Below are positions 9,888-41,234 of a DNA stretch of 42,610 nt, one piece after another; the first letter of the stretch is position 1, and every line of letters starts with the position of its first letter. Made by a program: the position numbers and the translations under genes. A model generated the notes under the pieces. The model was not told the origin of the DNA and did no database searches. It saw nothing but the letters and a program-made list of their open reading frames with translations. This DNA comes from a virus: the IMG/VR virus record IMGVR_UViG_3300025289_000052, positions 1-42,610 of that record. One strand, given 5' to 3'.

Positions 9888-10218
9888 GTTTGAACTCTAT
9901 GAGACTAATCCTCCCCAAGTACAAGCACTTAGAATCACAGAAGATATACTCTCTAACATTACCAAGTGCATAGCTGCTGGGATTGACCTTCCATCCTCGC
10001 TTGCTGCTATACCTCTATTCAGTAGTGTAGTATTTGGTGAAGGTCGTCGTGCTGAGATCTACATGCTTGGCTTCCACGGTATCCAGTACCTCCATGCTGG
10101 TGATTGGATCATTGTGCATCCTGATTCACGTACCTACATCATTACTGACTTGCGCTTTCAAGCGGAATACCATAAAGTGACACCTAGAGTCACTACAATT
10201 ACCGGGATGGAGCACTAA
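9871..10218 (+). CDS. PGDYG-like small phage protein
   Basis: This 115-residue protein starts at ATG 9871 with AGGAGAG upstream, inside the end of the nuclease gene. The C-terminal half, HAGDWIIVHPDSRTYIITDL then RFQAEYHKV, matches the layout of small phage proteins with a xGDWxVxxxxGxxYxxxxxxFxxxYxxV segment (PGDYG-like). The biochemical role of such proteins is not established to my knowledge. Confidence 0.6.
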   Translation: MISTTKFELYETNPPQVQALRITEDILSNITKCIAAGIDLPSSLAAIPLFSSVVFGEGRRAEIYMLGFHGIQYLHAGDWIIVHPDSRTYIITDLRFQAEYHKVTPRVTTITGMEH

Positions 10219-10224
10219 TCCTAA

Positions 10225-10935
10225 ATGGCTTTCACATCAACAATCGCAAGCTACCCCAGTAGAGGGCCGTGGGGAAATGGGGGATGGCGTGGTAACTGTT
10301 CCGGCTATCTAGTCAAAGACCTGATCGAGTCATTCTCTCCCACTCTTGTACTAGATCCGATGGAGGGTAGTGGAACCTCCCAAGATGTTTGTCACACGTT
10401 AGGTACCCCATACTTGGGCTATGATCTTAAGAATGGGGATGATATCCTTAGCCACAAGACTCAGTGGAAGATTGTAGATGAGGTAAGTGCAGTCACCGAT
10501 GGTAAAGGTGCCGACCTCATATTCTTGCATCCTCCTTACTGGAGCATGATCCGCTACAGTGAGAACCCCAACGACTTTAGCAACGGTACCTACGCCCAGT
10601 ACCTTAATAGGATGCGGTTGACTCTTAAGTTCCTACGTATGGTACTTAGTGAGAATGGGCGTATTGCACTGCTACTGGCGGACTTACGCACCCGCAACAG
10701 TGGACGTACCTACTTTCTAACGGATGACATCACTGAAGCAGACAAGCTATTGCTCCTTGCTCTCCACAAGGAGCTTAGGATAATCAAAGTCCAACACAAC
10801 ACTGTTAGCAACGGGGTCAACAACACTGGGATACCGTTCGCACACGAATATCTTACCATACTTCGTAAGGGCCGACAGCTACTCGGTACTGTTGAGATGG
10901 GCGACGAGTTGGAGCAAATCAATGACGAAGAATGA
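10225..10935 (+). CDS. DNA methyltransferase (N6A/N4C type)
   Basis: This 236-residue S-adenosylmethionine-dependent DNA methyltransferase has motif I VLDPMEGSGTSQDV near residues 42-55 and the catalytic motif IV LIFLHPPYWSMIRYS near 98-112. The catalytic tetrapeptide is HPPY rather than DPPY or NPPY, a variant I associate with a subset of methylases that read HPPYxxxIxxS. There is no clear target-recognition domain and no restriction partner beside it, so it is probably an orphan enzyme that modifies phage DNA, perhaps against host restriction. Target base and site cannot be read from the sequence. Confidence 0.75.
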   Translation: MAFTSTIASYPSRGPWGNGGWRGNCSGYLVKDLIESFSPTLVLDPMEGSGTSQDVCHTLGTPYLGYDLKNGDDILSHKTQWKIVDEVSAVTDGKGADLIFLHPPYWSMIRYSENPNDFSNGTYAQYLNRMRLTLKFLRMVLSENGRIALLLADLRTRNSGRTYFLTDDITEADKLLLLALHKELRIIKVQHNTVSNGVNNTGIPFAHEYLTILRKGRQLLGTVEMGDELEQINDEE

Positions 10936-11089
10936 ACTAGAACCAACTAATCCCATGATGGATACCTATATTGAGATGTCCAAAAAGCTTTCGCCGCAAG
11001 AGTTTCGGCGCTGGGCCAACCTTACTGGTATGTGGTTAGCACCGTATAGTTACAGCGCATCTCAACTTAAGGATAGGCTGCTTAAGTGA
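10922..11089 (+). CDS. Small hypothetical protein
   Basis: This 55-residue protein starts at ATG 10922 with GGAG 7 nt upstream and overlaps both the methyltransferase and the polymerase gene. It is helical (SKKLSPQEFRRWANLTGMWL) with a basic tail. Function unknown. The coupling suggests co-expression with the polymerase. Confidence 0.55.
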   Translation: MTKNELEPTNPMMDTYIEMSKKLSPQEFRRWANLTGMWLAPYSYSASQLKDRLLK

Positions 11090-13599
11090 CTGATCTCTCA
11101 CCCGATCCCATCGACCCTAGTTTTGGACTCATGATTCTCCCCGGACTCCTATCGTGTAGGGATTGCACTCTCTCATCGACTCGCCGTCGAGTAGTACCGG
11201 GATTCGGCACCTACCCCTCCCGAGTAATGTTCGTCGCACAATCCCCCGGCGAAGAGGAAGATCGTGATGGTAAGCCACTTGTTGGGAGAAGTGGACAACT
11301 GCTAACCAACGCTTGTAAGCAAGCGGGGTGGGATCTCAATGATCTCTATAAGACTAATGTGAATCATTGTCACCCACCCGAAAACCGTAAAGCTACGGGC
11401 CCCGAGATTAAGGCGTGTCGGCAGTGGCTCACCATAGAAATCGCTAAAGTAGACCCTGACCTAATCATATGTCTAGGTGATTCCGCCTTTCGATGGTTCA
11501 TGCCAGAAGAGAAATCTTCGATTACGCAGGTGCGGGGGAACATCTATAAGCGGGAGGTGTTGGGACGGGAGCGGATGATCATGCCTACCGTCCACCCAGC
11601 ATTCGTACTTCGCAACGTCGTAGGGTTAATGGCTGGGTACGTAGCGGAACTTAAGAACGTACGACTAACGTTGGAGGGGAAAGCCCCTAAGCTTCCTGAG
11701 AGCATCCCCTTTCGTAAGACTAAGGCATCATGGGATGAGATCATGGACGTGGTGTACGCCCCTGACAATCTCCCATTCGGCTTCGACCTTGAAACCGATA
11801 GACTAGGACGCGCTGCCGGTATTGTGGGAGTGGGAGTGTGTAATGAGATCGGCAACGGCCTCTACTATCCCTTTCAGGTGAAAGAAGAAGCCATCGAGCT
11901 AATGCAGGATCTCAAGATGGGATTGGAAGATCCCAAGCGTATTAAGATCGTCTCGAATGCGAAGTTCGAGAGGCACATCTGTGAGTCCATCGGTATTACG
12001 ATAAAGAACTATCGAGACACGATGGTCGAAGCGTGGCTGCTGGGGGATCATCCACTCTCCTTGAAGGATGGAATCCACCACGCTTATGGTATCGAGATGA
12101 TCCGCATCGATAAGTTCAAACGCTTCAAGTCTAAGGACTGGAGAGGTGAGAATCAACTCGATATGCGAGCAGCCCAAGATACCATCGAGGATGAGGTGGT
12201 GGAGTACGCAGCCCAAGACCCAGATGCTTCACTTCGACTACATCTCTATCAAGCCCCTAAACTAGCTGAACGCTCCCTCGACCTATCCCACCTCTACACC
12301 GATGTAGAGCTTCCCTTCACTGAGATCATTGTAGCAACTGAGAGGGCGGGAATCGCATTCGATCCCTCTAAACTGGCTGAGGCTAAGGCTAACCTAGAGC
12401 AGGCTCAGGTCGAGCAAACTGTTGAGCAGGCTAAGCTGATCGGCAAAGTCATCAACGTTAACGCCTACCTACAAGTCCGAGACACCCTGTATTTTGGGGA
12501 TCATCCCTATGTTATTCCGAAGCCAAAGAAGCGTAGGGGACACCCCGAGTACCCGACAGATCGAGTCTCTCTAGGAGAACACATTGACAATCCGCTCGTC
12601 CGAAACATCTTTACTATTCGCGGAATACGTAAGATGCTTAGCACCTACATTGACGGACTCCCAACTTGGATTGATCCTCTTGATGGACGAATTCATCCCG
12701 AGTGCAAGCAAACAGGTACCGAGACTGGGCGCGTTAGCTACGCGAATCCGAATCTCCAGAACATACCAGCACGAAAGCGAGATGATGTTTCAGTAGATTT
12801 GGAGGGGGCCACGATCCGTAAGGGATTCGTAGCATCCCGCCCCGACCACCTTCTCTACGCTCCCGACCTTTCACAGATCGAGATGCGTATGGCTGCTCAC
12901 CTTAGCGATGATGAGAACATGATCCGGCTCATCACCGAAGGTATGGATATCCACGATAACACCACCACCTTCATAACTGGAAAGACCGAAGATGAAATGC
13001 TACCATTGGAGTGGAAGAACGCCCGGTTTATTGCTAAAACTGTTGGCTTCGGCACCCTTTATGGGATCGGTGAACAGGGCGTCCTGATGCGTACCCCTAC
13101 CCTCAAGCTTACCCTAGATCAAGCTAGGAGGTTCATCGATGGATTCTACGGAGCCTACCCCGGTATCTTGGCATGGCAAGAGGCTGTCCGAGCTTTCACC
13201 CGACGAAACGGCTACGCTGAAACGATCCTTGGACGCCGCCGCTACCTCCCTAACATTACCGCAAGCGACCGCGCAATCCGTGGAGAGGCTGAGCGGGCAG
13301 CTATTAACGTCCCGGTTCAGGGCTCAGCGGCTGATTACTTCAAACTCTGCATACTATCGGTACACTCTCTACTTCAACAAATGAACCTACGTACTAAGAT
13401 CATTCTTCAAGTCCATGACGAGATTGTACTGGAAGGCCCAGAGAGTGAATATGATGTTCTCGCAACCGAAGTATTCCCTATCATGACCCAAGTCTACCCT
13501 CTCAAGGTACCAGTTAAGATTGATGTAGAAGCTGGCCGTTCGTGGGGCTCTCTTATCTCATACAAGAAATACAAAGAGGGGATACCGTTTGCATCGTGA
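11086..13599 (+). CDS. Uracil-DNA glycosylase (family 4)-DNA polymerase I fusion
   Basis: This 837-residue protein is a replicative polymerase with a repair domain. Residues 1-180 form a family-4-type UDG: four Fe-S cysteines C24, C27, C95 and C111, motif 1 PGEEEDRDGKPLVGRSG (54-70) and motif 2 HP at 170-171. Residues ~225-400 are a DEDD 3'-5' exonuclease: Exo I D234/E236, Exo II NAKFE (291-295) and Exo III Y374/D378. The family-A polymerase follows: motif A D594 (DLSQIEMR), motif B R647, K651, F655 and Y659, and motif C VHDE (776-779). The residue matching E. coli Pol I Phe762 is Phe655. There is no 5'-nuclease domain. The GTG start overlaps the previous stop. Confidence 0.92.
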   Translation: MTDLSPDPIDPSFGLMILPGLLSCRDCTLSSTRRRVVPGFGTYPSRVMFVAQSPGEEEDRDGKPLVGRSGQLLTNACKQAGWDLNDLYKTNVNHCHPPENRKATGPEIKACRQWLTIEIAKVDPDLIICLGDSAFRWFMPEEKSSITQVRGNIYKREVLGRERMIMPTVHPAFVLRNVVGLMAGYVAELKNVRLTLEGKAPKLPESIPFRKTKASWDEIMDVVYAPDNLPFGFDLETDRLGRAAGIVGVGVCNEIGNGLYYPFQVKEEAIELMQDLKMGLEDPKRIKIVSNAKFERHICESIGITIKNYRDTMVEAWLLGDHPLSLKDGIHHAYGIEMIRIDKFKRFKSKDWRGENQLDMRAAQDTIEDEVVEYAAQDPDASLRLHLYQAPKLAERSLDLSHLYTDVELPFTEIIVATERAGIAFDPSKLAEAKANLEQAQVEQTVEQAKLIGKVINVNAYLQVRDTLYFGDHPYVIPKPKKRRGHPEYPTDRVSLGEHIDNPLVRNIFTIRGIRKMLSTYIDGLPTWIDPLDGRIHPECKQTGTETGRVSYANPNLQNIPARKRDDVSVDLEGATIRKGFVASRPDHLLYAPDLSQIEMRMAAHLSDDENMIRLITEGMDIHDNTTTFITGKTEDEMLPLEWKNARFIAKTVGFGTLYGIGEQGVLMRTPTLKLTLDQARRFIDGFYGAYPGILAWQEAVRAFTRRNGYAETILGRRRYLPNITASDRAIRGEAERAAINVPVQGSAADYFKLCILSVHSLLQQMNLRTKIILQVHDEIVLEGPESEYDVLATEVFPIMTQVYPLKVPVKIDVEAGRSWGSLISYKKYKEGIPFAS

Positions 13600-13865
13600 G
13601 CATTCCTACAAGTGTATTATCGTTTACCGAACGCGACTTCCACGGTCGCTCATTCCGTAAGTACACACTGGAGGATTCACGAGGCCCACGAATATATCGG
13701 AATAATCTGGGCTGGGAGATTCGGCACGTACGAATCGCTCTCCGTAGAGGAATAGTATGGAGGTACGACCTTTACAGTCCTGACGGTGAGTTTATATCAA
13801 CCGAACCCACATTTCATGCTGCAACTAGAGCGTTTAGCGAGGTCTACAATCATGCTAGAAGCTAG
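13596..13865 (+). CDS. Hypothetical small protein
   Basis: This 89-residue protein has a GTG at 13596 that overlaps the polymerase TGA (GTGA), a coupled start. It is basic and aromatic, with predicted beta strands (RIYRNNLGWEIRHVRI, WRYDLYSPDGEF) and a helical C-terminus. Its end overlaps the macro-domain gene by 14 nt. Function unknown. Confidence 0.55.
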   Translation: MSIPTSVLSFTERDFHGRSFRKYTLEDSRGPRIYRNNLGWEIRHVRIALRRGIVWRYDLYSPDGEFISTEPTFHAATRAFSEVYNHARS

Positions 13866-14322
13866 AATAGATCTGTGGGATGAGAAGTTGAATGACGCCG
13901 ACGTACGTGTCATTACGACTAACGGATCGTTGAAGGCTAATGGTGAGGCTATAATGGGGCGAGGGTGCGCTGGTGAGGCTGCTGAACGCTATCCTCGACT
14001 CTCTAACGCACTCGGTACCCTACTACGAACCTACGGTAACCACGCTCACTACTTCGCAGGCTACAACCTCATAACTTTCCCCACTAAACATCTATGGACT
14101 GATCCCACCGCCGACCTACGGCTGATTCATCGCTCCACTGATGAACTTCTCCATATCGTTAACTCCCATAAGTTCAACAAGATTGTTATGCCCCGACCGG
14201 GTGCAGGCGTTGGAACGGGGAACTTACTTTGGGGATCAGTCCGTCCATTCTTAGCGGAAAGGCTTGACGACCGCTTCCTAGTACTAGACTACCCTATCAT
14301 TAGAATGAAAGCTAGAAGTTGA
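13852..14322 (+). CDS. Macro-domain (ADP-ribose-binding) protein
   Basis: This 156-residue protein is a single macro domain. RVITTNGSLKANGEAIMGRG followed by CAGEAAERYP fits the ADP-ribose-binding loop plus first helix of macro proteins (NxxxxxNGxAVMGxGxAxxAxxxFP). ITFPTK and IVMPRPGAGVGTGNLLW fit the later strand and the GxGxG phosphate loop. ATG 13852 has GAGG 9 nt upstream. Macro domains bind or remove ADP-ribose marks or hydrolyse ADP-ribose derivatives. In a phage this could counter NAD- or ADP-ribose-based host defence, which is inference. It is the last gene before promoter P4. Confidence 0.75.
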   Translation: MLEARIDLWDEKLNDADVRVITTNGSLKANGEAIMGRGCAGEAAERYPRLSNALGTLLRTYGNHAHYFAGYNLITFPTKHLWTDPTADLRLIHRSTDELLHIVNSHKFNKIVMPRPGAGVGTGNLLWGSVRPFLAERLDDRFLVLDYPIIRMKARS

Positions 14323-14347
14323 CACTTTAATAGGGGTATGGTAGACT
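14319..14347 (+). promoter_or_regulatory. Sigma-70-type promoter P4
   Basis: TTGACA (14319-14324), a 17-nt spacer and TAGACT (14342-14347). The 17 nt CTAGAAGTTGACACTTT are shared exactly with P2. The expected transcription start, about 7 nt downstream, falls on the first base of the 5' arm of the folded leader. Confidence 0.75.
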
Positions 14348-14353
14348 AGCGTA

Positions 14354-14519
14354 GTTGAAGGTAGGAGCAGACCTAGTGGGAAGGGAGTCCTATTCGGAAT
14401 GTACAGTGATTGTTATCGACAAAAGCTGTAAGTGCCGTGAGCTTTGCGGATAAACGGAGTGGCGGGAGAGACTGATAATCTCAAGGTGTCCACACCGGCC
14501 TTCAACAACAACGGAAAGG
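14354..14519 (+). ncRNA. Structured 5' leader or small RNA of unknown class
   Basis: This is 166 nt without a plausible gene. GTTGAAGG (14354-14361) can pair with CCTTCAAC (14499-14506) and close a multibranch fold. Inside are TAGG/CCTA (14362-14375), GAGA/TCTC (14468-14482) and GGTG/CACC (14485-14496). Two overlapping alternatives also occur: TACAG/CTGTA (14402-14430) and AAAGCT/AGCTTT (14422-14445). These two cannot form together, as in switching leaders. A ten-codon ORF (14399-14431) is also possible. No known riboswitch, 6S or RNase P consensus is recognised. Confidence 0.4.
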
Positions 14520-14846
14520 ATGGCCCACATCGTGCTAGGAGAACATGAATTTCCCGAGCTACTTGACGCTACTGCCGAGTACGAACGGTGGACAACGCGG
14601 AGTGAGGTTAGACCACCGGCCTACGATAATCTAGACGAGTGGGAACCTAAGGTCATTAAGCTGTTAGAATCATCTGCAATTCGCGCGGGTGTGGTTGATG
14701 TTATAATTGATCGAGAGATTGGCTATGATCACGCAACTTACACCGCAACAGGAAAGCTCTACAATGGTGTGAGGGATCAGCTTGCGGCAAAAGATAGAGT
14801 GATAGAGCAGCTTAACACAAGACTTATTCTTAACGAACAGGACTAG
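14520..14846 (+). CDS. Hypothetical protein
   Basis: This 108-residue acidic protein is the first gene after the P4 leader. The purine-rich GGAAAGG lies right next to the ATG, closer than usual; a GTG four codons in has better spacing. The C-terminal 35 residues (KLYNGVRDQLAAKDRVIEQL) are likely a coiled coil. No family recognised. Confidence 0.6.
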   Translation: MAHIVLGEHEFPELLDATAEYERWTTRSEVRPPAYDNLDEWEPKVIKLLESSAIRAGVVDVIIDREIGYDHATYTATGKLYNGVRDQLAAKDRVIEQLNTRLILNEQD

Positions 14847-14851
14847 CTAAA

Positions 14852-15022
14852 TTGTGTAAGTTACCAGAAGGCCCACCAGTTTGCTTTCACTGTAAGAAGA
14901 ACATTTTAGAACCGTGGAAGATCCTAATCTTACGTGAGTTACGCACTGAAAAGATTAGGACGTACTGTAACTGGTACTGTATTGAACATTCGATCTTGCA
15001 GCACAATGAAGCGAGGGTCTAA
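14852..15022 (+). CDS. Very small Zn-ribbon-like protein, TTG start
   Basis: This 56-residue ORF starts with TTG at 14852, with AGGA 10 nt upstream, and ends at TAA 15020-15022, just before the nuclease start. It reads MCKLPEGPPVCFHCKKN, then later TYCNWYCIEH. The C-x2-C and C-x3-C-x2-EH arrangement is a plausible zinc site (treble-clef or ribbon). It fills an otherwise empty 180-nt gap in an operon where genes abut, which supports its being real. Confidence 0.5.
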   Translation: MCKLPEGPPVCFHCKKNILEPWKILILRELRTEKIRTYCNWYCIEHSILQHNEARV

Positions 15023-15027
15023 GCTAA

Positions 15028-16314
15028 GTGAGTGTACCGTCCCACCCGTCACCAAAAGCAACTTCCCTAGTCACAACAGTCCAATCGGGAGTCGATTATC
15101 TCGCTCCCGGCATTGGTACGCGTGATTACTTTAGAGTTAGCGAGCGTGGTGCTTGTGACTTCGTAATTGGCGCGAGGATCGTTGGTCTACCGGAGCAAAT
15201 CAAGAGTGGTTCGTGGACTCCCCGTGGTACACCGATGCCCCTTCGTATGGGATCAGCACTGGAGCCACAGATCAATGACTTCCTCACTGATCAAGGGCTT
15301 CAACTCCACTTCACTGGATACGAACAGCTTGAAGTAGCTCATCAAGACCCCTACACTATGGGGCACCCTGACGGCCTGATCACCCTCGATTCTCTCTCTC
15401 AGCTTAGTGAGTGGGCGCGTTTCAATCTTCCGAAGTTTGCACAAGAACTTCTAGCTGATGGTGAGATGCTTCTTAGCGAGATCAAGACCATGAACGACGA
15501 ATCATGGACAGCTTTCGTAAAGGGAGGATTGAAGTCTCACCCCTTCCTCGTAAAGTATCTCGACCAGATCCACGGCTACCTTGGAGTATTCGATGATCCT
15601 AGCAACGATGAACTTTGGTCTGATTATTCAAGAGTTAATCCTCTTACCGGAGAGCGCGAATTCATACTTGGCAGCAAGTCGTTTAGGCGCTTACTACAGG
15701 CCCGTGGGTGTGACCGCCCTTCCTACTGCCTAGTCACTGGATTCAACACCGCCACAAAGCAATACGCCTTTGAGGTCATCCGCTTCGATCCAGTGTTTTT
15801 CGCGAATCGCTCCGACGAGATGGAGAAGGTAGCTCAGTACCTCCACATAGGAGAGCTTCCTCCACCATCGTTTGATGGACACGCTCAATCTTGCTATTTC
15901 TGTCCCTTCACCCACATTTGTCCTGCTGTACTGAAGATCAAGACAGCCGAGGGGTTCGATCTTCTTGATCTCACCGCTCCCGATATGGGTGATAGGGAGG
16001 ATCTCGGTGAACTCGATAACCTCGCTGTCGAGTACGTCTCTCTGCGTACCGACATCAAGGCTATGTCACGGCGCGCTAAGGAACTTCGTGAGTTGTTCCG
16101 TGACCGCACCATTAGTGGGCAGAAGATTGTTACCGACAGCCATCGTATCAAGAAGGTAAGTGTATCGGGTCGTAAGAGTATCGACGCTGATGCTCTAGAG
16201 GAACTAGCTGATAGTCTTGGCTTCGAGATTCCATACAAGCAAGGGAGTGGCTACGAACGACTGTATATTGAACCTATCTACGGCCCAACGTTCAAAGACG
16301 ACGACCGAGACTAA
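15028..16314 (+). CDS. Cas4/RecB-like PD-(D/E)XK nuclease with Fe-S cysteines
   Basis: This 428-residue protein is a predicted DNA exonuclease. Active-site elements in order are GHPDG with Asp115, EIK with Glu151 and Lys153, and QxxxY with Gln180 and Tyr184. C43 near the N-terminus and C289, C292 and C298 (SCYFCPFTHICP) form the split four-cysteine set of Cas4 and AddB-type iron-sulfur nucleases. The C-terminal 110 residues are helical and charged. The GTG start at 15028 has GAGGG 12 nt upstream. It probably resects DNA ends for recombination with the Sak4-like ATPase. Confidence 0.8.
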   Translation: MSVPSHPSPKATSLVTTVQSGVDYLAPGIGTRDYFRVSERGACDFVIGARIVGLPEQIKSGSWTPRGTPMPLRMGSALEPQINDFLTDQGLQLHFTGYEQLEVAHQDPYTMGHPDGLITLDSLSQLSEWARFNLPKFAQELLADGEMLLSEIKTMNDESWTAFVKGGLKSHPFLVKYLDQIHGYLGVFDDPSNDELWSDYSRVNPLTGEREFILGSKSFRRLLQARGCDRPSYCLVTGFNTATKQYAFEVIRFDPVFFANRSDEMEKVAQYLHIGELPPPSFDGHAQSCYFCPFTHICPAVLKIKTAEGFDLLDLTAPDMGDREDLGELDNLAVEYVSLRTDIKAMSRRAKELRELFRDRTISGQKIVTDSHRIKKVSVSGRKSIDADALEELADSLGFEIPYKQGSGYERLYIEPIYGPTFKDDDRD

Positions 16315-16349
16315 CACCCCCACTCTAAGCTCTAAGGAGATAACAAGAA

Positions 16350-16766
16350 ATGACTGATCAACCCACTCCCACTCCCACTACTCCCACTCCCCAGATGGGA
16401 ATACTAGACCTACCCTATCGAGTACAGGCCCATGTACTCCGTATCGATGCGTTCAATGCAATTACCAACGCGGACGCTAACTTTAACAGTGTTCTGAAGA
16501 TGATGGGGCCGGGCGGTATCCTGCCACCAAACTTCAACCCCGGTATTCACTTTGCCGTGACCAACATCTTTCTTGAAAAGGCTAAGGCCCTTGTAGCCCT
16601 CTCGATGAGTTGTATGACTGCTGCTGATCAGGTCGGTGAGAATGGTGACCCGCGAGAATCGGTACAAGTCACTCCAGCCTCCCCCTCTACACACATCGAT
16701 AGTACGCCTACTAACATCAACAGTGTTAGGAAGCCCGTTCGGGATGAGCCAAGGGGGATCAGCTAA
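16350..16766 (+). CDS. Hypothetical protein with Thr-Pro-rich N-terminus
   Basis: This 138-residue protein has one of the best ribosome sites in the window (AAGGAGAT, about 9 nt before ATG). Residues 1-16 are a TP repeat. The middle (LPYRVQAHVLRIDAFNAITN and GIHFAVTNIFLEKAKALVAL) is helical. The C-terminus is again Pro/Ser/Thr-rich and probably disordered. Function unknown. Confidence 0.6.
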   Translation: MTDQPTPTPTTPTPQMGILDLPYRVQAHVLRIDAFNAITNADANFNSVLKMMGPGGILPPNFNPGIHFAVTNIFLEKAKALVALSMSCMTAADQVGENGDPRESVQVTPASPSTHIDSTPTNINSVRKPVRDEPRGIS

Positions 16767-16769
16767 CCC

Positions 16770-17150
16770 ATGTCTATAATGAATTCTGAAGCATTCAATC
16801 GAGTGGTAAACTTTCGCATCCATGACTTGAAGGAGCGGCTTAACGTCAAGGGTGCTGAGTACGTACCCGCTGGTGTGGAAGATGATCGTCTACACAACTT
16901 CCGACGTGCTGCCGCTGCTCGTGGTCGTACCCTCACCGATACACTTTGGGGAATGCAGATCAAGCATCTAACTTCCCTATCCGATATGGTTGATGCCTCA
17001 TCACCAAACGACTACAGTTACGCTCAGTGGAACGAGAAGATCGGTGACGCAATTGCTTACCTCGTTCTACTCGATGCCATAGTGAGCGCGGAGATCGCCG
17101 AAAAAAGCCTCAACACCCCCTACACTGTTAAGTCGGAGCCCGTTCAGTGA
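16770..17150 (+). CDS. Nmad1/DUF1599-like protein
   Basis: This 126-residue protein resembles small phage proteins grouped as DUF1599/nucleotide modification associated domain 1. It has KGAEYVPAG...DRLHNFRRAAA, then LWGMQIKHLTSL, then NEKIGDAIAYLVLL. This is the layout KxxDYxxxxxxLxNFxxAA...W..Y..KH......EpixdRixDxINYLVLLxxL. The family is helical and often adjacent to thymidylate and nucleotide-modification genes, as here. Its exact reaction is unknown to me. It overlaps the next gene by 4 nt. Confidence 0.6.
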   Translation: MSIMNSEAFNRVVNFRIHDLKERLNVKGAEYVPAGVEDDRLHNFRRAAAARGRTLTDTLWGMQIKHLTSLSDMVDASSPNDYSYAQWNEKIGDAIAYLVLLDAIVSAEIAEKSLNTPYTVKSEPVQ

Positions 17151-17587
17151 CAAAGCCACTCATTTATCTCGCCACCCCCTACAACCATGCTCAACCCGAG
17201 ATTCGGGAATACCGTTATATGGAAGCCGTGCGTATGAGTGCGACTATCATGAACTCCACCAAGCACAACGTAATGGTATTCTCCCCCATTGCTCACTCTC
17301 ACAACATCGCAGTGCATGGCCCCTTCGATGGAGGATGGGACTACTGGGAGAAGTTCGACTATCGAATGATCGATGCCTGTGATGAAATCTGGGTGTTCAC
17401 CATGTTCGGTTGGCGTACCAGTAAGGGGATCAAGGCCGAACTCGCCTACGCTGCAATGTACGAGAAGCCCGTCAAAGAAGTTCAGTTTGCGGTTGCTGCT
17501 AGCCAAGTTAAATCCGAAGAAGAGTGGCGCAACAACACCCTATGGGTGGGGCCGTGGGACTGGGAAGGTAACAAATTCGATGTCTGA
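17147..17587 (+). CDS. DUF1937-like, nucleoside 2-deoxyribosyltransferase-fold protein
   Basis: This 146-residue protein shows the pattern of DUF1937 and related nucleoside-2-deoxyribosyltransferase-fold proteins: IYLATPYNH at the start, VFSPIAHSH near residue 45, then W-x-Y-W...D, CDEIWVF near residue 78 and TSKGIKAELAYA. The SxGxxxE element would supply the catalytic Glu in true transferases. It could take part in deoxynucleoside salvage or base exchange with ThyX and the MazG-like protein nearby. The GTG start overlaps the previous TGA. Confidence 0.6.
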   Translation: MTKPLIYLATPYNHAQPEIREYRYMEAVRMSATIMNSTKHNVMVFSPIAHSHNIAVHGPFDGGWDYWEKFDYRMIDACDEIWVFTMFGWRTSKGIKAELAYAAMYEKPVKEVQFAVAASQVKSEEEWRNNTLWVGPWDWEGNKFDV

Positions 17588-18335
17588 TCAACGCTCTACA
17601 TCTATGGGTGAACTTAAGAACATGCACACAATTAGTGGACAGCGAGTCTCCCTCGATTATGATCCAAAGGATCACGACGCTGACTGTCCCGGCTGTGCCG
17701 CCAATAAGGTAAGGGAAGAGATCAAGCAGCGGCTTGAGCCAAAGCCTCATCCGTGGACGCACTATCCTGAAAGCGCAAGCTATCTGTTAGGGGATATCAA
17801 AGATGATATGTGTTATGTATGTGGTCGTGCAAAACGCTATCATATCGATGCGCTTATTGATGAATCTATAGCTGTAGTCGAGACGCCTCCACCCCACTCA
17901 ACAGTTTCAAACGTAGTCGTAGCTCTAAGTCATTCAGCAGAAGCCCGTGATCTAATCGCTGCTGCTGAATATCGCGGGCAACTAATCGATACCCTTCCCG
18001 AATGGATAGAAGCCGTACACCAAAACGCCAAAGCACATGGCTTCCATGAAGATAGAATAAACATGCACAAGTCCATTCTCCTTATTATCGGGGAGCTAAG
18101 CGAACTCCACGAGCATCTTCGTAACGGTCACCCGGAAGATTCTTGGTGGCTAGTTCGTGACGAGCGCGGTGAGTGGAAACCTGACGGCCCACTTATCGAA
18201 CTCATCGACGCTATGATCCGCATTTGGGATCTCTTCGGACTCATAGGAATCAACCCCGCATATATCAACACTCTTACTCGGATGAAGCACAACTACAACG
18301 TTGGTCGCCCCTACAAACACGGAAAGAAGTTCTAA
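17580..18335 (+). CDS. MazG-like NTP pyrophosphohydrolase with N-terminal Zn-binding segment
   Basis: Predicted 251 residues from ATG 17580, overlapping the previous gene by 8 nt. Residues ~30-85 carry CPGC and CYVCG, a probable zinc site. Residues ~150-251 match the all-alpha MazG pattern: LLIIGELSELHEHLRNG, then ELIDAMIRIWDLFGLIGI, then a tail MKHNYNVGRPYKHGKKF typical of phage MazG proteins (KxxYNxxRPxxHGxKxF). Such enzymes remove pyrophosphate from NTPs/dNTPs such as dUTP, or lower (p)ppGpp signalling; which applies here is unknown. The two-part architecture is unusual for a short MazG. Confidence 0.65.
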   Translation: MSDQRSTSMGELKNMHTISGQRVSLDYDPKDHDADCPGCAANKVREEIKQRLEPKPHPWTHYPESASYLLGDIKDDMCYVCGRAKRYHIDALIDESIAVVETPPPHSTVSNVVVALSHSAEARDLIAAAEYRGQLIDTLPEWIEAVHQNAKAHGFHEDRINMHKSILLIIGELSELHEHLRNGHPEDSWWLVRDERGEWKPDGPLIELIDAMIRIWDLFGLIGINPAYINTLTRMKHNYNVGRPYKHGKKF

Positions 18336-18343
18336 CAACCTCT

Positions 18344-18526
18344 ATGGATACTGCACTCTGGGCAGCTACAATCATTATAGTCACAGTGATAGGAGCGGCG
18401 ACGTTGGCGGGGTGGTGGAGCTACCGACTTGATATGCTTCGTCTTAAGCTGATCATGCAGCGTGAAGCAATGGGAATCACTCCACCCTTTCCTACTAGTA
18501 GCGATGGGGAAGGTGATCTCTCGTGA
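18344..18526 (+). CDS. Small single-pass membrane protein
   Basis: This 60-residue protein has one membrane segment (ALWAATIIIVTVIGAATLAGWW), a basic segment after it (YRLDMLRLKLIMQR) and a Pro/Ser tail. It is predicted to be anchored in the inner membrane with the tail in the cytoplasm. The ribosome site is weak. Its stop overlaps the thyX start. Function unknown. Confidence 0.55.
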   Translation: MDTALWAATIIIVTVIGAATLAGWWSYRLDMLRLKLIMQREAMGITPPFPTSSDGEGDLS

Positions 18527-19392
18527 CCGCCACACCTGTACGTCCTTACGTCTACATCACCGCGATGACTCTCCCTAGTATTGGGGCAATCGAAAGCTAC
18601 CTCGACGACATCGGTGCTCATGAATGGCATTTCAACGATGACCTTTACAACTGGCATGATGATGTCGAGAAGCTAATCGAGTTCGCCGGACGAGTCTGCT
18701 ACAAGAGCTTCGGTGCCGGACTCAATCCCAATATCTCAAAGGTACGTGGAGATCCCGCAGCTTACATTGCTAACATCATAGAGTCAGGTCATGGCTCAGT
18801 ACTAGAGCATGTGTCGGTTCAGTTTACCCTCCGTAACGTCAGTAGGGTGTTCACGCACGAATTGGTAAGACATCGCCACGGTGCATTCTCGCAACAGTCG
18901 ATGCGCTACGTCCGTCTTGAAGATATCAACTACACCATCCCTACGTCCTTCGGTTCACTCCTTCCCCCCAGCATGGAGAACGCGCTGCTGATTGAACAGC
19001 AAGAGTGGTGGAACGGTATGGCTGATTGGTTCGGTCATAAGATGGCAATCCTCTCACAGTGGCAAGAAGAACTCGCTGCTCTCTGGGAGATCGATAAGAT
19101 CAAGGACTTCCACACTAAGAAATTATTGACATCGGACTTCAGGCGTCTAGCCCCTCACGGTGTAGCAACCGATATCGTCTGGACTACCAACCTCCGAGAG
19201 CTACGTCATGTTATCGAGATGCGGACAGCAATAGGAGCGGAGGCTGAGATGCGTCAAGTATTTGGCTACATCGCAGTGGAGTGCCAAAATCGTTTCCCCA
19301 AAGCCTTTGCTGATATGTCGATTGACTTACCAGCAATCGAGGATGATCCCCTCCAACTAAACGTAGCAACATTCAAGTACCATAAAGTGTAG
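18523..19392 (+). CDS. thyX: Flavin-dependent thymidylate synthase
   Basis: This 289-residue enzyme makes dTMP from dUMP using methylene-tetrahydrofolate, FAD and NADPH. The ThyX signature RHRx7S is complete (R116-H117-R118 to S126). ESGHGSVLEHVSVQFTLRNV (88-107) matches the nucleotide- and flavin-binding helix, and RRLAP / LRELRHVIEMR the C-terminal substrate site. The GTG start overlaps the previous stop. It supplies thymine for phage DNA synthesis and, with the UDG-polymerase, would lower uracil in DNA. Length is in the normal range for ThyX, with a slightly long N-terminus. Confidence 0.92.
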   Translation: MTATPVRPYVYITAMTLPSIGAIESYLDDIGAHEWHFNDDLYNWHDDVEKLIEFAGRVCYKSFGAGLNPNISKVRGDPAAYIANIIESGHGSVLEHVSVQFTLRNVSRVFTHELVRHRHGAFSQQSMRYVRLEDINYTIPTSFGSLLPPSMENALLIEQQEWWNGMADWFGHKMAILSQWQEELAALWEIDKIKDFHTKKLLTSDFRRLAPHGVATDIVWTTNLRELRHVIEMRTAIGAEAEMRQVFGYIAVECQNRFPKAFADMSIDLPAIEDDPLQLNVATFKYHKV

Positions 19393-19428
19393 TGTAGTGT
19401 GAGTGTGAGTGTGAGTGCGAGTGTAGTG
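19387..19428 (+). repeat. GTGTAG/GTGAGT simple repeat
   Basis: A run of hexamers, GTGTAGTGTAGTGTGAGTGT, then more GTGAGT units, fills the space between thyX and the next ATG. It is a microsatellite-like tract and may vary in length between isolates. Read from upstream GTG codons it would add Val-Ser repeats to the next protein. Confidence 0.6.
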
Positions 19429-19611
19429 ATGAAGTTTACACTAAGCAAGTACGAAGGTGAGCCGGTGAAGGAGGAACTTCAACGCTGTGAGGTCTGCAAA
19501 GAGATGTGCATGATCCCAGTAGATGTTCTTCCGTATCCAGTATGTGATGACTGCTACTGGCTACTCGCACGTAAGGTACAACAAGAAGCGGAGATGGAAA
19601 GTTATGGGTAA
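19429..19611 (+). CDS. Small Zn-finger-like protein
   Basis: This 60-residue protein contains CEVCKEMC and CDDC, a four-cysteine zinc-ribbon layout. I prefer ATG 19429; upstream in-frame GTGs lie inside a simple repeat and would add a Val-Ser repeat. The C-terminus is helical (LLARKVQQEAEM). Function unknown. Confidence 0.55.
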   Translation: MKFTLSKYEGEPVKEELQRCEVCKEMCMIPVDVLPYPVCDDCYWLLARKVQQEAEMESYG

Positions 19612-19789
19612 GAACGAATGGTTTGTTGTATCCATGCTGTGCTGGATTATCATTGCTGGATGTGCTTTGATAGGCACACTCACTGTAATAGTTGAGGCCA
19701 TAACTCGCTGGCCGCTAATTACTACACCGATCTTGGTTCTTACTTTTCTAGCAGTAACTGTCATCGCTACGTATAAGGGGAGAGGTTAA
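19604..19789 (+). CDS. Small membrane protein, two TM segments
   Basis: This 61-residue protein starts at ATG 19604 and overlaps the previous gene by 8 nt. Two hydrophobic stretches, WFVVSMLCWIIIAGCALIGT and ITTPILVLTFLAVTVIATY, are separated by a short polar turn, with a basic KGRG end. It could be an inner-membrane protein active early in infection. Its stop overlaps the next ATG. Confidence 0.55.
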   Translation: MGKNEWFVVSMLCWIIIAGCALIGTLTVIVEAITRWPLITTPILVLTFLAVTVIATYKGRG

Positions 19790-19980
19790 TGGCCGTACAT
19801 CCACCAGTAACAGTCTCAAATGATCCACGATATTATCCGAAGCCGGGCGAGCTAATCTTCAAGTGTCACTACTGCCCCGCATTCTCACGAGTCTGGTGGA
19901 GCATCTACGAACATGAGATGCGTAGTCATCCTGAACCGTCCTACGAAATTCTAGAGGCTCTAGAGACGCAAGATGACTGA
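19789..19980 (+). CDS. Small C2H2-type Zn-finger protein
   Basis: This 63-residue protein has FKCHYCPAFSRVWWSIYEHE followed by MRSH, a single C-x2-C-x(12)-H-x(4)-H finger. An acidic tail follows. Phages often carry single-finger proteins of unknown role; DNA binding is possible. ATG overlaps the stop before it and its stop overlaps the next ATG. Confidence 0.6.
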   Translation: MAVHPPVTVSNDPRYYPKPGELIFKCHYCPAFSRVWWSIYEHEMRSHPEPSYEILEALETQDD

Positions 19981-20329
19981 GCCGTTTACGGACATCGAAC
20001 TAGCCGCAATGTGGGAACGGGCGACTACCAAAACGTTTCTAGATCTAGTCGAACACTACAAGGATCTCCGTGAGCGTAACACCCAATTAGAGATATTCAA
20101 TCTCGTACTAAGCAGAGATGTTCAGTGTCTGGAAGAAGGGCCGACGCATGATGAATGGTGGGGATGGTTACGATCTAGTCAGAAGCGTAACGCCGATCTC
20201 ACCGCTGCCCTCAAGCGGCTCAGGGACGCGACAAAAAAGGAGATGGAGGCTGAGTTTTATGGATGGAACTTCAAAGAACTCGGAGCCTCCATCGCAGAGG
20301 CCGACCGGCTGACAGGAGAGGGGTCATGA
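19973..20329 (+). CDS. Hypothetical helical protein
   Basis: This 118-residue protein is almost wholly helical and charged, with coiled-coil-like parts (HYKDLRERNTQLEIFNLVLS; RNADLTAALKRLRDATKKEM). Its last ten residues, EADRLTGEGS, are encoded by a 26-bp direct repeat shared with the end of the next gene. Function unknown. Confidence 0.6.
   Translation: MTEPFTDIELAAMWERATTKTFLDLVEHYKDLRERNTQLEIFNLVLSRDVQCLEEGPTHDEWWGWLRSSQKRNADLTAALKRLRDATKKEMEAEFYGWNFKELGASIAEADRLTGEGS
20295..20320 (+). repeat. 26-bp direct repeat, copy 1
   Basis: CAGAGGCCGACCGGCTGA, then one variable base, then AGGAGAG. It encodes the end of the 19973 gene and supplies the ribosome site of the 20326 gene. The second copy is 170 nt away at 20465-20490 and differs at one base. 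In both copies the next ATG starts 31 nt after the repeat begins. Confidence 0.8.
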
Positions 20330-20499
20330 AGCAACCAGTAGAAGGCCAGCGCATCTATTGTGATAACTGCGCGACCATCCAGCGGTTACTGCTTGATGAG
20401 TTGGAGGAAGGCACTGACCTACAGTGTTCTGTGTGCTTCTTCGTTATTGCAACGCTCTACCCGCCAGAGGCCGACCGGCTGATAGGAGAGACCGAATGA
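20326..20499 (+). CDS. Small Zn-ribbon-like protein
   Basis: This 57-residue protein has CDNC and CSVC about 20 residues apart, a minimal zinc ribbon. ATG 20326 overlaps the previous TGA (ATGA) and is preceded by AGGAGAGGGG. The C-terminus EADRLIGETE repeats that of the upstream protein because it is encoded by the second repeat copy. Function unknown. Confidence 0.55.
   Translation: MKQPVEGQRIYCDNCATIQRLLLDELEEGTDLQCSVCFFVIATLYPPEADRLIGETE
20465..20490 (+). repeat. 26-bp direct repeat, copy 2
   Basis: Same as the copy at 20295-20320 with a C to T change before AGGAGAG. It again codes for a gene end and carries the ribosome site for the next gene (ATG 20496). Confidence 0.8.
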
Positions 20500-20672
20500 C
20501 CCTCGCTGATGAAATGCGTGGAATCCCTAACGCGGCATTCGCAGCCGCCCTGCTTCGGCAATTAGCCGACTTTGTCGAGAGAGACGAAGCGCGTCTAACG
20601 GACTTCAAGAACTCGGTGTACGGGAATGACAAGGGCAGTGTGTCGTTGTCGTGGGAGGAAAAGAAGTCATGA
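20496..20672 (+). CDS. Small hypothetical protein
   Basis: This 58-residue protein has an ATG overlapping the previous TGA. The middle is an Ala-rich helix (AAFAAALLRQLADFVERDEA), typical of small phage early proteins of the Ea22-like kind, with a Ser/Lys-rich tail. Function unknown. Confidence 0.5.
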   Translation: MTLADEMRGIPNAAFAAALLRQLADFVERDEARLTDFKNSVYGNDKGSVSLSWEEKKS

Positions 20673-20755
20673 ACTACGATAATTGGGCTGAATGGCTTTT
20701 TGGATGCGCTCTTATAGGGATGGCTCTCATCGTGATTGCGGAAGCGCTGTCATGA
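20669..20755 (+). CDS. 28-residue single-pass membrane micro-protein
   Basis: ATG 20669 to TGA 20753-20755 reads MNYDNWAEWLFGCALIGMAL followed by IVIAEALS. It has a GGAGG ribosome site 10 nt upstream and overlaps both neighbours by 4 nt (ATGA), the same coupling as the rest of the operon. Residues 9-25 form a membrane helix. The strong ribosome site and perfect chaining support a real gene despite its size. Function unknown. Confidence 0.5.
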   Translation: MNYDNWAEWLFGCALIGMALIVIAEALS

Positions 20756-21072
20756 CCCCCGAGACAACCCCCGAGACAATCGCGAGGCTGCGGAAGCTGC
20801 TGGCTGGCATACCGCCGCGTGACCCTGTAAGTGGCAGCAGGACTTTGCCAACCGCCCTCATCCTTCGTGCTGTGAACGCTCTGCCCGAGTTGCTAGACGA
20901 ACTAGAGCGTAAAGCGATGGCGCTAGAAACAGCTTGCTTATGGCTCAGCCGCCTTGCAGAGACCTATGATAATGGCGATACAGAAGGTGGTGGCAAGCCA
21001 GCAATTGAGGCACTGAAGAATGCCGATATGGATGCGTATCGCGCTGCTATCAATGGACAGGGGAAAAGTTAA
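20752..21072 (+). CDS. Hypothetical helical protein
   Basis: This 106-residue protein starts at ATG 20752. A TPET repeat opens it (MTPETTPETIARLRKLLAGI). LPTALILRAVNALPELLDEL and KAMALETACLWLSRLAETYD are helical and resemble Ea22/Eac-like small phage early proteins. Function unknown. Confidence 0.55.
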   Translation: MTPETTPETIARLRKLLAGIPPRDPVSGSRTLPTALILRAVNALPELLDELERKAMALETACLWLSRLAETYDNGDTEGGGKPAIEALKNADMDAYRAAINGQGKS

Positions 21073-21255
21073 GTGCCAATCATACACTCCGACTGCTCCG
21101 GTAGTAAAAGCGAACCTATCCCATCCTCTATAGATTGGGAGCACAAACGCGCACTATGCCCAATCTGCCAATCCGCTGGACGCCCCGCAATAGTACGAAT
21201 CTTCAAAGATCGAGATGGCGTAATCGTGACGTGGCCGCACGAAGGAGATATATAA
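21073..21255 (+). CDS. Small Cys-containing protein
   Basis: This 60-residue protein has GTG directly after the TAA of the previous gene. It has C8 and a later CPIC pair with a nearby His, which may form a zinc site; the C-terminus is beta-rich (PAIVRIFKDRDGVIVTW). Function unknown. Confidence 0.5.
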   Translation: MPIIHSDCSGSKSEPIPSSIDWEHKRALCPICQSAGRPAIVRIFKDRDGVIVTWPHEGDI

Positions 21256-21259
21256 AGTT

Positions 21260-21712
21260 ATGGATTATCCGCCCCGCACCTGCATTGTTTGTCTCAAAAC
21301 CTTCACCCCTCATCGCAACGATCAGATCTTCTGCTCCTATCAAGAGGACTACACCTGTAGTGATGCTCTTAGACGAGTTGAGCGGTTTCAGGTTGCTAAG
21401 TTTCTAAAAGCGATGATCGTACAAGATATGGCGTGTTGGGACTGCGGTGCGGTGGACGTGTCCGTTTTGGGGGCCACGGGTTCGCCAGCGGTCGCTACGG
21501 GCAAGTCTTGCGGACTTGTAACGCCCGGTACCGCCCGACTCCAAGCCCTTCTACGCACCCCCTACAAAGCGGCCTACGGGGTGACCGGCCCAGCCAACGA
21601 CCCAATCACCACAACCGATATGTTAGCATCCTGTGTACTCTGCCGACGTAGATATCACCTGAGATTATCAACCCAACCGGGCGAAAGTATTGAGGGTGGG
21701 AGCGAAAGCTAG
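21260..21712 (+). CDS. Cys-rich protein with two zinc-type segments
   Basis: This 150-residue protein is the last gene of the plus-strand arm, with GGAG 12 nt before ATG. The N-terminus CIVCLKTFTPHRNDQIFCSY followed by a further Cys is a zinc-finger layout often seen in phage HNH-type or recombination-associated proteins. CWDCG and CVLCRRRYH form a second set further on, separated by a Gly/Ala/Thr-rich insert. The insert DNA contains an 18-bp sequence (21503-21520) repeated at 36221-36238. No HNH catalytic triad can be recognised. It ends 9 nt from the convergent tail-fibre gene. Confidence 0.55.
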   Translation: MDYPPRTCIVCLKTFTPHRNDQIFCSYQEDYTCSDALRRVERFQVAKFLKAMIVQDMACWDCGAVDVSVLGATGSPAVATGKSCGLVTPGTARLQALLRTPYKAAYGVTGPANDPITTTDMLASCVLCRRRYHLRLSTQPGESIEGGSES

Positions 21713-38499: not shown

Positions 38500-41130
38500 T
38501 TAGGCGACGATGGACGCTGCCGCACCACGGTAGTCGATCCAGTCACCACCGTACTCGTGGCGAATCTTGAACGCCATAGCATCGTGGGTGAATGCCATGC
38601 CGACGGTCGGCTGATCCTGAACGAAGGACGCTGGGTTCTCCTGTCCAAGAACAAAGCCCATCTCGATACAAGCAAGCTCGCTAGGTGCAAGCATGAAGTA
38701 CCAGTTGTTCGTATCAGTGAACTGAGGAACAACGATGTTACCGAGAAGGCCACGGCTGGAGTCAGCAAGGATGTTGGGAGCGTTGTTTGCGCTCTCAGGC
38801 ACATTGACCGACTTGATCAGCTCGTAGGCGACATCTTCAAGATCGATGCCGGTGAGAAGATAGCCACGACCGGAAAGGCCAATGACCTTACCAGCATCGT
38901 TCGTCATCTTCATGATGATGTGGCGAATGGCGTTAACGGCTGCGCGATCAAGCGCCGTGGTTACACGGTTGCCCTGATGCGAAGCGAGGTTGAAGATCTG
39001 TACCCCATCGGTAAGGGTCGGGCCGTTACCGGAGTTGGCGAGGAAGAAGGTGTTAGCAGCGTACTCGTTGATAGTAAACACTGCTGATGCCGACATAAGC
39101 TGAGGAATCCGCTGAATACCCCGCTGATCGTCGTTGATGATGGCACGACGGCCAACCGTCACAACGTTACCGAATCCGGTCGGGGTGTACGTCTCGCTGA
39201 CTTCTCCCCAGTCCATTTCGGTGTACTCAGCACCATCAACAGTACGCTCGGTGAGGGAACCGAAGTTCTGCAACCGAACACGCTGTTGAGCCTTGAAGTT
39301 AGCAAGATCCGTCTTACTAACGATTGGCTCCCACCACTTGTTCTGCACCTGATACTGAGCAACGAGCGACTTGTTCATCGAGTTGTTCAGGAGGTTCGAC
39401 ATCGTGATGGTACCACCACCAATGATGTGCGTTGCCCCCGGAAGTGCTTCGACGAAGTTGTTAGCAGGCTGATCCCAGTACTCGGCAAGCGCACCACCGG
39501 GGCCGTAGTACCCGCTAAACTCGTAGTCGCCGGTAATGTTCCGATAGAACTCGGAGAAGCTCCGAATCTTCGGGAACTTACCTTCCATCTCTTTCTCGAC
39601 GGGAGCGCCGAAGAAGAGATCGAGGGCGGCACGAGCCTGATCGAGTGGGGAGATGGCGCCTTCGATAAGGCTACCGTAGCGGATCGGCATGTTCGGTTGA
39701 AGGCGACCGGGAGCATCACTTTCGGTCATCACCGACAGAGCGTGTTTCTCACTCTTGCTAACAAGAGCTTCGATTTCTTCAGTCGAGAGGATCTTACCAT
39801 CGGCTTCCGCCAGCAGATCAGTCTTAACGGCCTGTGGAAGCCGAGACTTGGTAAGGCGAAGGAGAAGCGCGTTATGAGTAGCAGCGATGTGCCCACTCTT
39901 AACGGCTTCCGCAAGCTGATCCTGAAGAGTCTTAGTATCTTCAATCAGCTTGGTAAATTCGGCGTTAGCTTCAATCTTAGGCGCAGGGGTGGGCGCGGGC
40001 GGATCGCCAGCAGCCTTAGCCTTGATTTCCGCAACAGCGGCTTCGTACAGGTCTGGACGTGCCTCTTTCAGCTCATCCAGAGTCATCTCTTCGATTTTCT
40101 TCACGTCTACATCGACTCCATTATTTGCGATGAGGGAAAGTGGCTGTCCACCGGCTCCCGGTTCTGCGACTGCATCCGCTGATGCGTAGTAATCAATGCT
40201 GAGTGCTTCCTTAACGAATACGCCATTCTCCTTGATAATTTGGGTCTTGCCAGCAGCAAGAATTGAGATACCTACGAGTTCGGGTCGCCCGCGCTCGATA
40301 GATTCCTTAATCATCCCCGGAAGCCAAGGCACCGGAGAGTTCTCTGGGGAGAGTAGATTAAGCTCTCCAATGATGCCGTTGATTGTTGAGCCATCAGGAA
40401 GCTTAATCCCCTCATGGTACTCAACGTTTGCCCACCAACCGCCCTTAGTAGCAAGGGAGCGACTAGAATCGCCACTACGCGCACCTGCTGGATGATCGAC
40501 GTACATGCCGCGACCTTCCAGCTTATCGATGGATTCCTTCAGAACCTTACCGCTGTACTTGACTCGGTTCTTACTCACACCTTCTTTGATAACAAGTGTG
40601 CGGAATCGCGGGGCGGTGGGGGTGGAACCTTCGGCCTCTTCAAAGATGAAGATCGGCTCGGTCGGCATAATTTCGAGTCCGGCAGGAACCTTGTGATCTT
40701 CTACTACCTTAGAGAATTTGGGGTAGCCGGGAGCAGCCGGGGGAGTAGCGGGAGTGGAGGGAGCTTTCTCGATCTCCATCATGGTAGCCGCGACAAGATC
40801 CCGAGCTTCCTGTACTAGTGCATCGGCTGCGGGAGCGTCATCAGCCGCCGTTACCTTCGCCACACTAGAGAGAGTGGTGAGGGCACTAATGATACCATCG
40901 AGGACTTCACGGGTCGCGTTAGAGATCTTCGCACCAGCTTCGATGGCGAAGAAGGATTCAAACGAACCCTCCGCCATAGCTTTTGCGAATGACCAATCAT
41001 TGACAAGAATACGCTTAACACAGTCGATAGCGTATGTGAGTCCTTCGTACTTATCCTCTTCTACATTACGTGCGCCTTTAGCCAGCATAAGGGCTTTCAG
41101 GGCGTCACGTAGAGGCTGTAGGTTGTCCAT
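38500..41130 (-). CDS. Head maturation protease-major capsid protein fusion
   Basis: Predicted 876 residues from ATG 41130, chosen because GGAGAG lies 10 nt upstream; longer in-frame starts have none. Residues 1-135 are helical. Residues ~140-335 match HK97/S78-type prohead protease: GRGMYVDHPAG with His213 and LVGISILAAG with Ser289, then ALSIDYYASADAVAEPGAGG. Residues ~345-470 are a charged coiled-coil region like a scaffold (DELKEARPDLYEAAVAEIKA). Residues ~480-876 are the capsid protein, ending WIDYRGAAASIVA, with ERTVDGAEYTEMDWGEVSET and a late FKIRHEYGG. Self-cleavage would be expected to release the capsid part. Confidence 0.8.
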   Translation of the reverse strand: MDNLQPLRDALKALMLAKGARNVEEDKYEGLTYAIDCVKRILVNDWSFAKAMAEGSFESFFAIEAGAKISNATREVLDGIISALTTLSSVAKVTAADDAPAADALVQEARDLVAATMMEIEKAPSTPATPPAAPGYPKFSKVVEDHKVPAGLEIMPTEPIFIFEEAEGSTPTAPRFRTLVIKEGVSKNRVKYSGKVLKESIDKLEGRGMYVDHPAGARSGDSSRSLATKGGWWANVEYHEGIKLPDGSTINGIIGELNLLSPENSPVPWLPGMIKESIERGRPELVGISILAAGKTQIIKENGVFVKEALSIDYYASADAVAEPGAGGQPLSLIANNGVDVDVKKIEEMTLDELKEARPDLYEAAVAEIKAKAAGDPPAPTPAPKIEANAEFTKLIEDTKTLQDQLAEAVKSGHIAATHNALLLRLTKSRLPQAVKTDLLAEADGKILSTEEIEALVSKSEKHALSVMTESDAPGRLQPNMPIRYGSLIEGAISPLDQARAALDLFFGAPVEKEMEGKFPKIRSFSEFYRNITGDYEFSGYYGPGGALAEYWDQPANNFVEALPGATHIIGGGTITMSNLLNNSMNKSLVAQYQVQNKWWEPIVSKTDLANFKAQQRVRLQNFGSLTERTVDGAEYTEMDWGEVSETYTPTGFGNVVTVGRRAIINDDQRGIQRIPQLMSASAVFTINEYAANTFFLANSGNGPTLTDGVQIFNLASHQGNRVTTALDRAAVNAIRHIIMKMTNDAGKVIGLSGRGYLLTGIDLEDVAYELIKSVNVPESANNAPNILADSSRGLLGNIVVPQFTDTNNWYFMLAPSELACIEMGFVLGQENPASFVQDQPTVGMAFTHDAMAFKIRHEYGGDWIDYRGAAASIVA

Positions 41131-41192
41131 TAAGTTTACACTCTCCGTATGAATGAAAGGGGACTCCATTGCGAGAATGCAGTATAGCAAGA

Positions 41193-41234
41193 GGCCCGTC
41201 AACACCTTTTCTAGATTAAAGGTGTCAACGGGCC
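41193..41234 (-). other. 17-bp hairpin upstream of the capsid fusion gene
   Basis: Arms 41193-41209 and 41218-41234 flank an 8-nt loop. In the minus-strand RNA all 17 positions pair, two of them as U-G and G-U; on the plus strand those two positions are C/A mismatches. The arms contain GTTGACACCTTT, the -35 core of the early promoters. It may be a terminator-like or processing hairpin between the 41265 gene and the capsid gene. Confidence 0.55.

Follow-up and report, generated by a model that had tools for sequence, protein, structure and literature searches.

Several phage DNA polymerases are known to carry a uracil-DNA glycosylase (UDG) domain at the N-terminus. In 2016, such a domain was described in the polymerase of Shbh1, as in SPO1, and these polymerase-borne domains were suggested to aid processivity (PMC5135824). 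In 2020, UDG, exonuclease, and polymerase domains were reported in PaBG gp205 and throughout its 11-member group (PMC7412058). A UDG that acts as a processivity factor is known from vaccinia, namely D4 (PMC10253040). Furthermore, PDB entry 9qhs, a 1142-aa 'putative DNA-directed DNA polymerase I', matched the UDG domain studied here, and Thermus phage phiLo has a 1175-aa protein that is similar and bears the same name; the two are probably the same protein. Among the papers searched, none dealt with 9QHS or with a UDG domain in the T5 polymerase.

Here we analysed the window, the whole 42,610-nucleotide stretch of IMG/VR virus record IMGVR_UViG_3300025289_000052. It encodes a protein in which UDG, exonuclease, and family-A polymerase follow one another in the same order as in PaBG gp205 and the Lupandier jumbo phages, Shbh1, SPO1 gp31, and phiLo. 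It differs from the known fusions in having AQSPG as motif 1 and Leu at residue 65 together with all four cluster cysteines, whereas the phiLo polymerase keeps GEAPG and SPO1 lacks the cluster cysteines.

The fusion gene and its surroundings

The gene, its domains, and two genes of the surrounding region are as follows.

10225..10935, plus strand: DNA methylase gene upstream of the fusion (PF01555, 3e-9; 54% identity to L175, syntenic)
11086..13599, plus strand: UDG-exonuclease-polymerase fusion gene (single open frame, 837 aa, GTG start)
11146..11673, plus strand: family-4 UDG-derived domain, residues 21-196 (matches to Pfam, TIGR00758, TM0511, and Tth UDGa)
11773..12255, plus strand: 3'-5' exonuclease domain, residues 230-390 (Pfam; Klenow alignment)
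12283..13548, plus strand: family-A polymerase domain, residues 400-821 (Pfam; motifs A, B, and C)
15028..16314, plus strand: Cas4/RecE-like nuclease downstream, in the same replication module (42% identity to L175)

An earlier note on this DNA had read the three domains in one uninterrupted frame, which was confirmed: the frame occupies exactly 11086-13599, and Pfam matched UDG at residues 38-177 (6e-28), DNA_pol_A_exo1 at residues 230-387 (3e-13), and DNA_pol_A at residues 429-821 (4e-99). PHROG 17, a phage DNA polymerase family, spanned both the UDG and the polymerase parts (residues 46-830), and the chain combines UDG, 3'-5' exonuclease, and PolA as UDG-PolA fusions of the PHROG 17 type do. 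Structure prediction of the full protein, which the note had proposed as a check, gave a mean pLDDT of 86.3 and a pTM of 0.85 when AlphaFold2 was run on a 40-sequence alignment, and the PDB matches of this model were Klenow-type polymerases. The single-sequence model of the UDG domain alone had a pLDDT of 38 and was of no use.

The note had also credited the exonuclease and polymerase with all catalytic motifs. This was correct for the polymerase, in which the family-A motifs A (D594), B (R647-Y659), and C (H777-D778) are all present. In the exonuclease, the acids D234, E236, and D378 are kept as in Klenow, but the Exo II position, Asp in Klenow and most relatives, is Glu (E295) in the window protein. 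E295 (window 11968-11970) is common to the window and two related phages, L175 and L178, and the KFERH stretch is found clade-wide.

A sequencing or assembly artefact joining two genes was ruled out by a second IMG/VR contig and by a syntenic relative. The contig, L002, gaplessly spans window 10039-21596 with 99.87% identity (15 mismatches), and its fusion protein is 100% identical to that of the window. L175, a less closely related phage, shares the UDG-exonuclease-polymerase layout in a protein about 54% identical (53-60% across the three domains), and its gene order is that of the window: AAA/Sak4-like, ERCC4-like, methylase, UDG-PolA, and Cas4/RecE-like. Thirteen of the 15 differences from L002 cluster within 61 bp of the polymerase gene (window 12651-12711), where all are synonymous third-position changes; this patch looks like a recombination tract or a mixed assembly. 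The same phage carries a ThyX thymidylate synthase gene (window 18523-19392), a pyrophosphatase-like gene (17373-18335), and one 901-aa chain that matches both head maturation protease and capsid profiles (38500-41205). No close relative was found among the genome contigs searched, and no host was therefore assigned.

Active-site residues of the glycosylase domain

The UDG domain scored 139.7 bits against NCBIfam TIGR00758 (UDG_fam4), above the curated cut-off of 125.3, and its best solved relatives were TM0511 (6e-36) and Tth UDGa (2e-30). Alignment to Tth UDGa, numbered after PMC5387724, located the following residues, all on the plus strand.

11155..11166: cluster cysteines C24 and C27 in a CxxC (Tth C13 and C16)
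11236..11250: non-canonical motif 1, A51-Q52-S53-P54-G55, in which Gln replaces the Glu of GE(A/G)PG; AQSPG also in L175
11278..11280: L65, which aligns with the uracil-pocket Phe (Tth F54)
11356..11385: motif 3, with N91 (Tth N80), H94 (K83), cluster cysteine C95 (C84), and N100 (N89)
11416..11418: fourth cluster cysteine C111 (Tth C100)
11593..11598: motif 2, H170-P171 (Tth H155)

In Tth numbering the window therefore reads A40, Q41, S42, P43, G44, E47, L54, N80, H83, C84, N89, and H155. Like Tth UDGa and TM0511, the domain has the four cluster-ligand cysteines of family 4 (C24, C27, C95, and C111), the two motif-3 Asn residues (N91 and N100), and the motif-2 HP (H170-P171); unlike them, it is fused to a polymerase and carries the substitutions E41Q, G42S, F54L, and K83H. 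The description of a complete-looking UDG in the earlier note is therefore wrong: the cysteines and the HP motif are present, but motif 1, the pocket Phe, and K83 are altered. UdgX is likewise a family-4-like domain, but membership was rejected, as motif 1 is AQSPG and not GEQPG, the KRRIH loop is absent, and TIGR03914 gave 106 bits against a cut-off of 189.95. In Tth UDGa, E41Q is rescued by G42D, which makes a QD doublet, and family-1 UDGs function with Gln at the motif-1 Glu position and Asp adjacent (PMC5387724); a compensating doublet of this type was rejected here, the window doublet being QS.

The altered site is common to related phages. L175 also has AQSPG and retains F54, and L178 has SVAPA, F54L, N89D, and a motif-2 His changed to Gln (H155Q). 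The motif-1 Glu is thus absent in the window, L175, and L178, and the cluster cysteines are intact in all three. Identity to the window was 53.4% for the UDG domain versus 54.8% for the polymerase in L175, and 37.7% versus 48.7% in L178. The equal divergence of the two parts between the window and L175 suggests that the UDG domain is under constraint. In L178 a segment of about 700 bp interrupts the polymerase gene immediately ahead of motif A (L178:4665-5367), and an Rfam search of this insert for an intron gave no family match.

Fused domains across phages and a remnant in T5-family polymerases

Our collection from IMG/VR and phage records comprised 152 distinct ORFs for family-4 UDGs. The earlier note had held family-4 UDG and Pol I to be normally separate proteins and had proposed a search for other phage PolA proteins with an N-terminal UDG; 99 of the 152 were fused to PolA, 50 stood alone, and 3 were unclear, and the layout is already published (PMC5135824, PMC7412058), so that the premise is wrong for phages. 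The fusion is real and represents a type already known and common among phages. Fused and stand-alone UDGs group apart, with 8 label changes versus 42 when shuffled.

E41, F54, N80, H155, and the four cysteines were kept in 83 of the 99 fused domains, a set gathered with UDG patterns and phage records and biased toward canonical motifs. In a polymerase-selected set the four active-site residues were kept in 13 of 21 (one not scorable at H155) and the cysteines in 18 of 21. Because most fused UDGs retain the full active site, the chemistry presumably matters in most relatives. The polymerase tree, however, shows at least five independent losses of the motif-1 Glu. The active site is lost with the cysteines retained in Serbin, Almagne, LysYB1, and phiXF1; in SPO1, in which motif 1 reads QENP and retains the Glu, the cysteines are lost as well as the active site. 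In four phages (L009, L010, L257, and L259) the gene directly before the fused polymerase encodes a dCMP or cytidine deaminase.

The T5-family (Demerecviridae) polymerases resemble the window protein in being family-A enzymes whose N-terminus, immediately ahead of the exonuclease, has a UDG-related stretch. The UDG profile matched this stretch in PSa2 (8.6e-5), AhSzw-1 (9e-4), and Vibrio phi 3 (4e-6), and profile-profile comparison of seven T5-family sequences with hhalign gave P 1.3e-8 over 79 columns in the C-terminal half of UDG, against 0.019 for the best of 100 column shuffles and 0.031 for the best of 57 unfused PolA N-termini. A Pfam search of the T5-family proteins did not detect the stretch. 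In the polymerase N-termini of L255, L256, and L261-L265 it is shortened and, unlike the window domain, lacks cysteines and catalytic motifs. Forms intermediate between the full UDG and this stretch were found in Rhizobium, Rhodobacter, and Gordonia phages. Judged from these matches, the N-terminal regions of T5-family polymerases appear to be what is left of the same UDG domain.

Role of the glycosylase domain

We assign a probability of about 50% to the reading that the window, L175, and L178 clade has retained the UDG domain for DNA contact, with excision weak or absent. The altered uracil-cutting site, together with the kept fold, suggests a role for the domain in holding DNA and not in repairing it. 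On this reading, a tailed phage would use the protein as its proofreading family-A DNA polymerase; the enzyme belongs to the known phage type that begins with a family-4 UDG, and its UDG domain would serve mainly as a DNA-contacting module that may help the polymerase stay on its template, uracil excision being strongly reduced or lost. The reading is favoured by the cost of E41Q and F54A in Tth UDGa, by the absence of the rescuing QD doublet, by the losses in L175, L178, and more distant fusions, and by the equal divergence from L175; the published suggestion of a processivity role and vaccinia D4 agree with it. The intact N91, N100, and H170 and the complete active site of most fused relatives speak against it. 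Low excision, cluster occupancy, DNA holding, and processivity are inferred, and we predict weak uracil excision by the window protein.

It is rather unlikely that the domain is an active glycosylase that clears uracil from the phage's DNA at the fork or close to it and tolerates Gln-Ser in motif 1, even though the four cysteines, both Asn residues, and the motif-2 His are retained, the site is intact in most fused relatives, and ThyX and the pyrophosphatase-like gene hint that the phage controls its dT/dU pool. If the domain created an abasic site in front of the polymerase, synthesis would be expected to be blocked there, and the motif-2 His is lost in the sister phage L178. Family-1 enzymes use Gln at the same position, but in Tth UDGa E41Q without an adjacent Asp lowered k2/Km 888-fold, and F54A, at a position that has also lost its Phe here, 17-fold (PMC5387724), values from one other enzyme that may not transfer to the window protein. 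Given E41Q, G42S, F54L, and K83H, excision at the fork is a less likely role in this clade; because N91, N100, and H170 are intact, some may remain. Excision at the fork is plausible in the numerous fusions whose site is intact.

Archaeal family-B polymerases pause at template uracil by means of another domain. A comparable sensor, which would bind template uracil without cutting and pause the polymerase, is improbable here: the fusion places the pocket on the polymerase and N91 and H170 are retained with the motif-1 Glu gone, but the pocket Phe is Leu, L178 lacks the His, T5-family polymerases lack any pocket residues, and the Tth E41Q enzyme showed no uracil-DNA binding (PMC5387724). That the domain is decaying and has no current function is very improbable, since the active-site losses that recur across the tree and the T5-family remnants are set against matched UDG and polymerase divergence from L175, the persistence of all four cysteines in the three phages, and a confidently modelled fold.

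Retention for DNA contact also agrees with the T5-family remnant, which fits a role of the domain beyond excision. More tentatively, and somewhat short of an even chance, the captured UDG may be an ancient component of the enzymes in one branch of the phage family-A polymerases, retained for DNA holding, its chemistry lost many times, and surviving as the N-terminus of the T5-family polymerases. This remnant and the altered active site of the clade are the new findings. Taken together, these findings indicate that the fusion is not rare and that fused UDGs divide into intact and active-site-lost forms, which raises the testable question of whether a UDG fold may serve as the DNA holder of a phage polymerase in place of a clamp.
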